Of a stretch of 64,000 bases of DNA, positions 12,392-18,639 are shown piece by piece. Under the pieces are notes generated by a model that was given only the letters and a program-made list of their open reading frames with translations, did not search any database and was not told where the DNA came from. Each line of letters begins with the position of its first letter. Positions within the stretch are counted from its first letter, which is position 1. Position numbers and translations under genes: made by a program. Source of the stretch: Rosistilla carotiformis (GTDB lineage: Bacteria; Planctomycetota; Planctomycetia; Pirellulales; Pirellulaceae); assembly GCF_007753095.1 (NCBI RefSeq), contig NZ_CP036348.1, positions 6,735,411 through 6,799,410 of the forward strand, in the 5' to 3' direction.

Positions 12392-12736
12392 TCAAATCGA
12401 CCGACCCAATAGTTTGCTCAACTCATTGAAAACGGCTTCGCAACCGGCATCGCCGATGTGCCCCATCTTCTCGCGGATACGGCCTCGGTCGATCGCTCGC
12501 AATTGAAACACCAACGCAACGGAAGCCTTGCCCAACCCGCTTTCTGACGATGCGGCAATCGTCGTGGTTCCTGCGAACCGCAACGCTCGAATTGCCGTGC
12601 TCAGCGGCACCACCAGCGCTGTAGGTAGACCTCCCGCATATCGATCTTCCTGCATGATGATGGCGGGGCGACGGCCATGTTGTTCCCGACCATTGGCCCG
12701 CGGAAAATCGACCCAATGAATGTCGCCGACATTCAT
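12392..12736 (-). CDS. MazF/PemK-like mRNA interferase toxin
   Basis: A 114-residue toxin of the PemK/MazF fold, endoribonucleases that cleave mRNA. GDIHWVDFP at 3-11 is the usual opening strand, GRRPAIIMQ near 22 is the conserved catalytic-region strand, and VVPLST near 46 the next one. It ends in helices (MGHIGDAGCEAVFNELSKLL). The ATG overlaps the stop of the antitoxin gene upstream as ATGA, which fixes the start and gives the typical antitoxin-first order. Convergent with the HicB-like gene. Confidence 0.88.
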   Translation of the reverse strand: MNVGDIHWVDFPRANGREQHGRRPAIIMQEDRYAGGLPTALVVPLSTAIRALRFAGTTTIAASSESGLGKASVALVFQLRAIDRGRIREKMGHIGDAGCEAVFNELSKLLGRSI

Positions 12737-12948
12737 TGCTCCTCTGCCTCCCATTTTTCGATCATCGCCCACGCTTCATCGCTAGCTTGATCCCATGCCT
12801 GCATCTCGGCACGCAGTTCGGCCGGAATCGATTCTGGCTCGACCACGATCTCGACATGCGTCCCTTCAGCCAACTGCTGGGTTGCTTGCGGAACAATCAC
12901 GCCATCTTTCACGATCCCAGGAATGCTCGCTCGACTATCTGTGGACAT
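12733..12948 (-). CDS. antitoxin partner of the MazF-like toxin
   Basis: A 71-residue protein. The first 40 residues (IPGIVKDGVIVPQ, GTHVEIVVEP) resemble the beta-strand DNA-binding part of AF2212-like/DUF104 antitoxins, and the acidic, Trp-rich C-terminal helix (MQAWDQASDEAWAMIEKWEAEE) would wrap the toxin. It directly precedes the toxin and overlaps it by ATGA. Such antitoxins usually repress their own operon; no obvious operator palindrome is visible. Assignment rests on length, order and composition rather than on a strong family motif. Confidence 0.78.
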   Translation of the reverse strand: MSTDSRASIPGIVKDGVIVPQATQQLAEGTHVEIVVEPESIPAELRAEMQAWDQASDEAWAMIEKWEAEEQ

Positions 12949-16756: not shown

Positions 16757-16963
16757 GCTGTGATTCCTCCGTCTGATTCCGTCACCCAAACACCCGACAA
16801 TCCCGCCGCACCGTGCGGTGCTTCTAATGACAATTCGCCATTGCAGCGACAATCTTGGATGATTGCAGGAAACGGAGCGCTCGCCAACTACTAATAGCAA
16901 TCTGGCACACCCTCCGACAAATCAGCGATTGACGGACACAGGCCCGCTGTTAGAATCGAGCCC

Positions 16964-17160
16964 GACATGGGTGCCGAGCGTCGACTTGTGGTCCGTTCGG
17001 AGAATAGGGAAAACGGTGCAAATCCGTTGCGGTCCCGCCGCTGTAACCGGGGACGAGGCTTAAATCACTGCCACTGTGACCGATGCGATCACGATGATCG
17101 CGGTTGCGGGAAGGCATAAGCCAAGGCTGAACCGGGAGCCAGAAGACCTGCCCAGCTGTC
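16964..17160 (+). promoter_or_regulatory. cobalamin (B12) riboswitch
   Basis: All conserved parts of the class are present in order: GGTGCC at the 5' side (16970), AGGGAAAACGGTGCAAATCC at about 17006, GCCGCTGTAACCGGGGACGA, GCCACTG, GGGAAGGC at about 17108, and a perfect B12 box, GAGCCAGAAGACCTGCC, ending at 17152. The closing stem pairs GACATGGG (16964-16971) with CCCA-GC-TGTC (17151-17160). Adenosyl- or other cobalamin binding normally shuts off the downstream gene. About 190 bases of leader lie between it and the first good start, the DUF1559 gene, so that gene and the lipoprotein after it are the apparent targets. Confidence 0.95.
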
Positions 17161-17253
17161 ATCGCACAATAGCGTCGTACCCTCGGGGAACAGGGAGCGG
17201 ACGTGATTTTTTGGTTGCGCTCGCGTTGCAACGGCACTGGCCGGCAATCGTGC

Positions 17254-17281
17254 GAGCGACGAAAGATCTCGATCTTCGCTC
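17254..17281 (+). promoter_or_regulatory. hairpin in the riboswitch leader (possible expression platform)
   Basis: GAGCGA...AAGATC pairs with GATCTTCGCTC across a two-base turn, with three unpaired bases on the left arm. It lies between the B12 aptamer and the DUF1559 start and has no run of T after it, so it is not a textbook terminator. A role in ribosome access or anti-termination is possible but unproven. Confidence 0.35.
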
Positions 17282-17351
17282 CTGTTCTGCGCCGTAGGGA
17301 CCGCGAACCGTAGAGCCACCGTGGCAGTCGGCTCGAAAGATCTTTCCATCC

Positions 17352-18245
17352 ATGAAAATGAACAATACGCGCAGCGCCGGCTTCACGCTGGTCGAACTGC
17401 TGGTCGTGATCGCAATCATTGGCATCCTCGTCGGATTGCTATTGCCCGCCGTACAACAAGCCCGCGAGGCAGCTCGCCGCATGCAGTGCAAGAACCGGCT
17501 GAAACAGATCACTCTGGCACTGCATAATTATGCCGACACCTACCGCGAAACGATGATTCCCTACGTCGTCGAAGATCAAGCGCGGATCAATTACCTGGCG
17601 ACCTATTCGGGATCGCAAGGCAAGGCGCAGTTCTGGTTCGGAACCGTCGACTACGATCAACCCGATCCGAATCAACAACTCGATTACACCCTAGGCCCCT
17701 TGGCTCCGTTCATCGAGACCAGTTACACGTCGTTCCAGTGTCCCGATTTTGGCCCCGGACAGATGGACACGGTGAAATACGGTTTTCCCGCATCGGGCTT
17801 TGGCTTCAACGGCCACTACCTTTCGCGATCCTCCGGGATCGATTGGTTGCCGCCGACATACGCCGCGGCCCCCAATCCCGAACCGATGGTCCGTCGTTTT
17901 GCTGAAGTCCGTTCGATGAGTGCAACAGTCGCTTTTGCCGACAGCGCCCAAGTCAAACTTGTCTCCTTCTCGCCGCCAGCTTACAGCTTTGAAGAGAACT
18001 GGCTGCTGGAGCCTCCCAGCCACAACTTTCCCTCCGTCCACTTCCGTCATCACGGCGCTGCGAACGTTGCCTTCCTGGACGGACACGTCGAATCGCGAGA
18101 GCGACACTTTAGGATCGACGTTCCTGGCACCAACTATATGTCAGCAGAACAAGCTGCATTGATCGACGAGAAAAAGCTGGGCTACGTCAGTGAGGGTCAC
18201 CTGGACGACCCTGCGTTGCAAGACGAACTGTACGACCGCGAGTAG
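17352..18245 (+). CDS. DUF1559 prepilin-like protein under B12 riboswitch
   Basis: A 297-residue type II pseudopilin-like protein. [19 protein letters not shown] (residues 10-28) is the prepilin cleavage site plus N-terminal helix; [19 protein letters not shown] continues the helix as in all DUF1559 proteins. The rest is a secreted domain ending in the H-x9-DG motif ([12 protein letters not shown]). Such proteins are hugely expanded in planctomycetes, with unknown role, possibly surface or appendage components. Compared with the other three copies here the middle domain is different and shorter, so it is a separate subgroup. The cobalamin riboswitch upstream makes it B12-responsive. A lipoprotein gene follows 58 bases later. 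Confidence 0.93.
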
Positions 18246-18303
18246 GCGATCCAGTCCGCTGAGTTCCTATTCGCACCCAACGCCTTCCCTGGAAGTTCGA
18301 TCG

Positions 18304-18639
18304 ATGTTCGCCAAAGTAAAAATCCGCCAAGCTGCCGCCTGCCTATTGCTGCTAACTGCCATCGGCTGCGGCGAGACCGCACCGCCGGTCGCCGAGGTCA
18401 CTCAATCGGTCTACGTCGACATCGACACGATGCAAGCGGTTGTCGCCGACACCGTCACGCAGACTCCCGCCATCCACCCGGTCACCGGCAAACGGACGCT
18501 GCAACCAGCACTCTATTGCCCCAAGTGCGAGCGTTGGCACGCGATCCCATCGGTCGAACAGATCAACCGACAACCCGGCGCCACCCGCTGCCCCAAGACC
18601 GGCGCCGAAATGACCGCCGACGGCCCTTTGCCCGAATAG
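18304..18639 (+). CDS. small lipoprotein with a Cys-rich (zinc-ribbon-like) motif
   Basis: A 111-residue protein starting MFAKVKIRQAAACLLLLTAIGC; Cys22 is a likely lipid-attachment site. The mature part has YCPKCERWH (Cys72, Cys75) and RCPKTGAEM (Cys96), which looks like a metal-binding ribbon lacking one of four Cys, or using His79. No known family is recognised. As the second gene after the cobalamin riboswitch it should be B12-controlled too. It could hold a metal or cobalt corrinoid at the membrane, but this is speculation. The gene ends about 48 bases before the dispersed repeat. Confidence 0.75.
   Translation: MFAKVKIRQAAACLLLLTAIGCGETAPPVAEVTQSVYVDIDTMQAVVADTVTQTPAIHPVTGKRTLQPALYCPKCERWHAIPSVEQINRQPGATRCPKTGAEMTADGPLPE

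Follow-up and report, generated by a model that had tools for sequence, protein, structure and literature searches.

A cobalamin riboswitch in a 64 kb stretch of the Rosistilla carotiformis genome (hereafter, the window) precedes two genes, one encoding a DUF1559 pseudopilin and the other a small Cys-motif lipoprotein. On the strength of sequence comparisons, we consider it probable that this locus is a B12-repressed corrinoid-uptake operon of the envelope, in which the dedicated pseudopilin and the lipoprotein take the place of the outer-membrane receptor BtuB.

The riboswitch aptamer is complete. It spans positions 16952–17169 of the window on the forward strand and matches model positions 1–189 of 189 of RF00174 at 104.6 bits (cut-off 31.5; E = 3.9e-25), and cmscan at gathering scores gave no other Rfam match anywhere in the window. 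The match includes the B12 box region (AGCCAGAAGACCUGCC) as well as the closing stem. The full-model match thus confirms the intact aptamer, with B12 box and closing stem, described by the initial annotation, whose start at position 16964 falls 12 nt inside the match. In each of the two sister genomes, the same gene follows an RF00174 match of similar score, and conservation among the eight leaders aligned, the sisters' included, lies mainly within the aptamer. A promoter-like site, TTGACG-16-TAGAAT (16929–16956, forward strand; 10 of 12 matches in a consensus scan), overlaps the upstream edge of the aptamer match; two such sites were found where 0.6 are expected in 2 kb on both strands, which is not functional evidence by itself. 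The leader between the aptamer and the start codon (17170–17351, forward strand) is the putative expression platform. Scanning of its plus strand identified no terminator-like site, and it folds no better than shuffled sequences (z = −0.56). Neither result points to a recognizable expression platform, which counts against the uptake reading. Repression at plentiful corrinoid is the usual direction of control in the cobalamin riboswitch family. Accepting this direction, the leader would permit synthesis of the pseudopilin and the lipoprotein when corrinoid is scarce and would repress both when corrinoid is plentiful.

The first gene (17352–18245, forward strand) encodes a 297-residue pseudopilin belonging to a riboswitch-linked branch of the DUF1559 family. 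Its N-terminus matches PF07963 (N_methyl, 32.2 bits, Pfam) and PF07596 (60.7 bits, cut-off 23.3), the best stretch of the latter match covering profile positions 1–32 of 268 only. The protein has a class III signal peptide with the G-F-T-L-x-E motif and a hydrophobic helix, and its H-x9-DG tail gives a weak match (19.7 bits, cut-off 19). The pseudopilin profile matched 18 PDB sequences, mostly pilins (for example, 8pfb and 9egp), with all of the matches confined to the first 59 profile positions. The second gene (18304–18639, forward strand) encodes the 111-residue lipoprotein, in which C72-x2-C75...C96 are invariant in an alignment of 14 rows. The lipobox LLTAIGC, judged by eye, places the lipidation motif at C22, and G21 and C22 are at least 90% conserved in the same 14 rows. 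The lipoprotein has no Pfam or NCBIfam match at E 0.001, a search for relatives of solved structure yielded nothing useful (best E 0.4), and no known B12-binding domain was found by Pfam or NCBIfam in either protein. These reading frames agree with the prepilin-like protein and Cys-motif lipoprotein that the initial annotation had placed directly downstream of the aptamer. The nearest scanned neighbors carry no link to B12 by Pfam: genes for a PQQ-repeat and a DUF4870 protein lie upstream, and downstream is a DUF58 gene on the opposite strand. The window riboswitch is followed by no recognized B12 gene, which counts against the uptake reading. Elsewhere in the window, positions 12392–12772 on the reverse strand encode a PemK/MazF-like toxin family protein (PF02452).

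The scan of planctomycete genomes with RF00174 and the tabulation of downstream genes that had been proposed as a check were carried out. Within the family, 123 of 149 genomes contain an RF00174 match and 26 do not. The analysis used 150 listed matches in 112 of the 123 positive genomes, with weaker matches left out; the window riboswitch is one of these sites. Gene content was derived from open reading frames in all frames and BLAST clusters, whose representatives were named by Pfam or NCBIfam, without a gene caller, and DUF1559 was detected with a custom N-terminal HMM built from 67 seeds. A DUF1559 start lies on the same strand within 400 nt downstream of 74 of the 150 listed riboswitches, in 65 genomes. 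The chance expectation is about 0.4, calculated from the density in the R. carotiformis genome (about 97 DUF1559 genes, obtained by merging the fragments among 104 matches), and chance adjacency was therefore rejected. Oppositely oriented DUF1559 matches number 13 in the same flanks of the 150 sites, and only 2 matches lie upstream. A general tendency of riboswitches to precede DUF1559 genes was likewise rejected by a small control, in which all five TPP riboswitches found in 60 genomes precede ThiC and none precedes a pilin. The first recognized gene at the other 76 listed sites encodes a BtuB-like TonB receptor (35 sites), a DUF4465 protein (18), ribonucleotide reductase (11), MetE (4), a DUF6580 protein (2), BtuF (1) or a secreted protein without a name (1), and 4 sites are unassigned.

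The riboswitch-linked pseudopilins that were placed in trees are not drawn from the DUF1559 family at large. Eighty linked sites, taken with a limit of 1300 nt, were considered for tree building; a filter on length and motif retained 66 of them and removed 14, which counts against the uptake reading. The 30 top-scoring paralogs of R. carotiformis were included in a tree of 118 rows, and 12 of 20 low-scoring paralogs were added to give a tree of 130 rows; the other 8 lacked the N-terminal motif and were dropped, and the remaining paralogs of this genome stand outside the trees. In these quick trees, the 66 linked rows fall into one clade of 50 and another of 16, set against 64 unlinked rows, and the linkage label changes twice. 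The window protein belongs to the 16-row clade, all members of which are riboswitch-linked (SH-aLRT 100 in both trees), whereas the 50-row clade has SH-aLRT values of 93 and 98. Linkage as a general trait of DUF1559 was rejected, given that the linked rows placed in the trees fall in two branches only.

A search by sequence alone, with the N-terminus of the query removed, identified 26 relatives of the window protein in named genomes. RF00174 lies directly upstream of all 24 that can be tested; the matches of the other 2 start less than 200 nt from a contig end. The lipoprotein follows the DUF1559 gene in 19 of the 26 loci, 4 end too early, and 3 are without it. Among the 149 family genomes, where 29 lipoprotein candidates were scored per genome, 8 strong matches and 1 weak match elsewhere were found; 7 of the 8 stand behind a riboswitch and a DUF1559 gene, and the eighth lies at a contig end, with its upstream region out of view. 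The two genome sets overlap in part, at least in L241 = G119, L260 = G101, L244 = G422, L249 = G352 and L254 = G179; the locus L254 is that of a cultured planctomycete, Thalassoglobus neptunius KOR42. Further downstream, 8 of the 26 loci contain a gene for a BtuF-like protein, and 5 of these 8 also contain a DUF71 gene. The DUF71 proteins bear the ENGEFH signature in all five cases, and PF01902 was matched in the three that were scanned. This signature is that of the B12 subgroup of DUF71, for which a role in B12 salvage has been predicted (PMC3541065). The five loci resemble the DUF71-B12 salvage clusters in that each combines DUF71 with a BtuF-like gene, and differ from them in that here the genes form one run with the pseudopilin and lipoprotein behind a riboswitch; DUF71 is absent from the window. 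DUF6580 proteins are encoded between genes of these relatives' loci, with PF20221 matched in the three that were scanned. The initial annotation had named, as an outcome that would speak against its proposal, a B12 transport gene kept by relatives in this position and lost here. This is half the case: a BtuF-like gene does occur in relatives, but the DUF1559 and lipoprotein genes stand before it there too.

Other partners appear in the DUF1559 operons of the family, namely, DUF4465, CobQ, CobO, CobU, BtuFCD and CobD/CbiB; those in the relatives of the window locus are DUF71 with ENGEFH, DUF6580 and the BtuF-like protein. Among the 74 linked sites listed, DUF4465 follows in 30, a salvage and transport run led by CobQ in 12, and the small lipoprotein of the window type in 7. 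B12 binding by DUF4465 proteins has been published, including one from the planctomycete Mucisphaera (PMC13398666). Where CobQ or DUF4465 follows, these genes are therefore plain B12 targets of the switch, and the DUF1559 gene could be a passenger, its first place being accidental or reflecting a supporting structural role in the envelope, while the riboswitch serves the B12 genes downstream. We regard this explanation as quite unlikely. Many sites, including that of the window, have no recognized B12 gene downstream, the linked DUF1559 proteins placed in the trees make up two branches, and the window branch is found behind the switch at every testable locus. The same partner genes bear on cobalt. 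The three invariant cysteines of the lipoprotein could bind metal, so that the two proteins might handle cobalt rather than corrinoids and the lipoprotein might serve as a metal chaperone. However, the partners recognized in the operons belong to corrinoid binding, corrinoid salvage and BtuFCD, with no cobalt transporter among the neighbors named. The cobalt alternative raised by the initial annotation gains no support, and we consider it extremely improbable.

Several additional proteins were observed at these sites. Cobalamin-riboswitch loci repeatedly encode DUF6580 membrane proteins (L063:4500-5090 on the reverse strand, L248:7825-8460, L249:2981-3610 and L254:8041-8715). These are twice the product of the first recognized gene and are candidates for an inner-membrane corrinoid transporter. 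Two clusters of secreted-looking proteins, c22 (L111:3059-4198 and 5 other sites; in 6 DUF1559 sites) and c43 (L073:1504-2427 and 3 other sites; in 3 DUF1559 sites), are encoded near the riboswitch and DUF1559 where DUF4465 is missing. Their representatives lack any Pfam match, and they are possibly unrecognized B12 binders. Proteins of about 1900 residues that fall in the DUF4465 cluster are encoded behind a riboswitch and DUF1559 at L140:209-5920 and L141:2-5740, both on the reverse strand, with an N-terminus of the LEDRRLLA type. At L164 and L179, a single riboswitch is followed by DUF4465-DUF1559-DUF4465-DUF6580-NrdA-NrdB, such that one gene run holds both ribonucleotide reductase and uptake genes.

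BtuB-like receptors and the linked pseudopilins nearly exclude each other. Full-length BtuB-like receptors were found in 46 of the 149 family genomes at a threshold of at least 230 bits, which was chosen once the scores were seen to break off between 233 and 137 bits. In no case among the 149 genomes does such a receptor reach the NCBI cut-off, which counts against the uptake reading. Comparison with the DUF1559 linkage over the 149 genomes gives 4 with both, 42 with BtuB only, 61 with DUF1559 only and 42 with neither. Hence, 61 of the 65 genomes with the linkage have no full-length BtuB-like receptor, but the 4 genomes with both and the 42 with neither also count against the uptake reading. 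When linkage to either DUF1559 or DUF4465 is considered in the 112 genomes with listed sites, the respective numbers are 6, 32, 71 and 3 (p = 1.4e-18, Fisher test without correction for kinship). By genus (n = 53), they are 8, 12, 32 and 1 (p = 5e-6, Fisher test, kinship ignored). Four genera mix BtuB-positive and BtuB-negative genomes; three of these swap cleanly, and one holds a genome with both.

This near-exclusion also bears on the possibility that B12-starved cells make these pili in order to attach to algae or other organisms that produce B12, in which case the proteins would be parts for adhesion and not for uptake. Planctomycetes reportedly extend pili-like fibers out of their crateriform structures and also possess a holdfast (PMC5394234), and the linkage alone points only to a response to the corrinoid level. 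However, uptake fits better than attachment because BtuB-like receptors are nearly excluded and because the operons are shared with genes of B12 binding, transport and salvage. We therefore judge the attachment explanation unlikely. The envelope corrinoid capture or handling proposed by the initial annotation is supported by the same near-exclusion, together with the 24 of 24 linkage of the window branch and the B12-gene neighbors in its relatives.

The association extends beyond the family. RF00174 was found in 349 of 397 genomes of the class. DUF1559 follows 29 of 30 sites in three other families (28 identified by motif and 1 by eye); these sites are the best-scoring ones and not a random sample, and one of them (L278) ends after 14 pilin residues. 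Twenty further sites were hand-picked to cover other families, and DUF1559 follows 11 of them (10 identified by motif and 1 by BLAST and eye; L300 ends after 16 residues). The other nine lead to ribonucleotide reductase (5), MetE (1), BtuCDF (1), a small gene and then DUF1559 (1) and an unassigned gene (1). Altogether, the linkage was seen in seven families, the window's own included, whereas the single sites sampled in families f5, f14 and f16 each precede ribonucleotide reductase. None of the 40 genomes of other families with a riboswitch-DUF1559 pair carries a full-length BtuB-like receptor. The only one of 49 genomes of other families that does carry such a receptor has ribonucleotide reductase downstream of its sampled riboswitch. 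This pattern of gene content suggests that planctomycetes use a pilus-type surface device, not the usual outer-membrane receptor, for B12 uptake. In the open-licence PMC literature, searches found no paper on the cobalamin riboswitch in planctomycetes and, among the papers listed, no description of its linkage to DUF1559.

The R. carotiformis genome (7.44 Mb, single contig) contains two cobalamin riboswitches, each of which is followed by a DUF1559 gene. The second locus (L036:5845-6753, reverse strand, at about 2.77 Mb of C1) continues with a DUF4465 protein (161 bits) that contains the sequence NTPAY and ends, as judged by eye, in a PEP-CTERM-like manner. In both sister genomes, these two loci are accompanied by a third, in which the riboswitch is followed by DUF1559-CobQ-CobO-CobU-BtuF-BtuC-BtuD-CobD (L038 and L040). 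In the R. carotiformis genome, a search for CobQ identified none (best score 30 bits, cut-off 273), and a BtuC like that of the sisters (288 bits) was not found. The only FecCD match, a weak one of 35.5 bits, is over the Pfam cut-off and is carried by the sisters too, which counts against the uptake reading. Without CobQ, R. carotiformis probably needs corrinoid from outside. B12-binding domains persist in its genome, in two reading frames of 165 and 1234 residues; by size alone, these would suit a mutase subunit and MetH, respectively. A full-length BtuB (TIGR01779) was not found in this genome; the best match has 99.5 bits over positions 50–203 of 614 (cut-off 599.7) and is located in the plug region of an 829-residue TonB-type receptor frame. 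This receptor, or a distant TonB receptor, could in principle carry B12, which counts against the uptake reading.

The absence from R. carotiformis of the CobQ and BtuC genes that both sisters carry in an operon raises the question of whether the window locus is a relic of a lineage that lost corrinoid salvage, with a riboswitch and two functionless genes left over. However, the sisters carry the CobQ-BtuC operon at a different locus. The genes of the window locus remain intact and have almost identical counterparts in both sisters, the DUF1559 protein being 96% identical to the copy in sister G001 over 208 columns, and the B12-binding domains have been retained. A relic is thus very unlikely.

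The proposed operon has features of several known systems. As in the BtuB-BtuFCD system of the E. coli type, a cobalamin riboswitch stands before a gene for capture at the envelope, an arrangement that the BtuB-like genes at 35 of the 150 listed sites display directly, and several DUF1559 operons contain BtuFCD; the first gene here, however, encodes a pseudopilin and not a TonB receptor. The DUF4465 partners resemble BtuG, BtuH and BtuJ (= DUF4465) of Bacteroides, riboswitch-controlled secreted proteins for B12 scavenging, and the NTPAY sequence of the R. carotiformis DUF4465 protein resembles the published MNTPSY loop (PMC12751083). The Bacteroides accessory binders colocate with BtuB (PMC13398666), whereas here DUF4465 pairs with DUF1559, mostly without BtuB. 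The main text of that paper contains none of the words DUF1559, planctomycet- or pili. The window protein shares the prepilin N-terminus and the weak H-x9-DG tail with the planctomycete DUF1559 paralogs (PF07596, SBP_bac_10), from which the riboswitch-linked proteins placed in the trees are set apart as two separate branches. Planctopirus has 68 DUF1559 paralogs, its biggest paralog group, two of which are essential (PMC10632474), and Rhodopirellula has 74 DUF1559 genes (PMC2754498).

In the uptake reading, the pseudopilin would be processed and then built up from the inner membrane by a pilin-type route. The pseudopilin and the lipoprotein, together with secreted DUF4465 in many genomes, would catch corrinoid, with the pseudopilin or the lipoprotein presumably binding it. 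Corrinoid would then be passed over the outer membrane and received by BtuF-type proteins, or perhaps by DUF6580 proteins, in genomes that encode them, so that the device would do what the TonB receptor BtuB does elsewhere. The planctomycete pili-like fibers bind dextran, and their uptake system has been described as still to be characterized (PMC5394234), a parallel to the proposed pilin-based capture. Assistance of iron acquisition by a type IV pilin is the subject of PMC13170364.

DUF1559 proteins form very large paralog families in planctomycetes, and an established function was not found for them in the literature. A broader interpretation, which we offer as tentative and rather doubtful, is that Planctomycetia import B12 by a TonB-independent, pseudopilin-based outer-membrane machine and that the DUF1559 family comprises substrate-specific capture pilins that replace the TonB receptor repertoire found in other Gram-negative species. 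In that interpretation, the B12 branches would be the first DUF1559 branches with a predicted cargo. Because the riboswitch provides two DUF1559 branches with a predicted cargo and with B12 as an on/off condition, the role of the family becomes testable. If the proposal is true, B12 would cross the outer membrane of these bacteria without BtuB.
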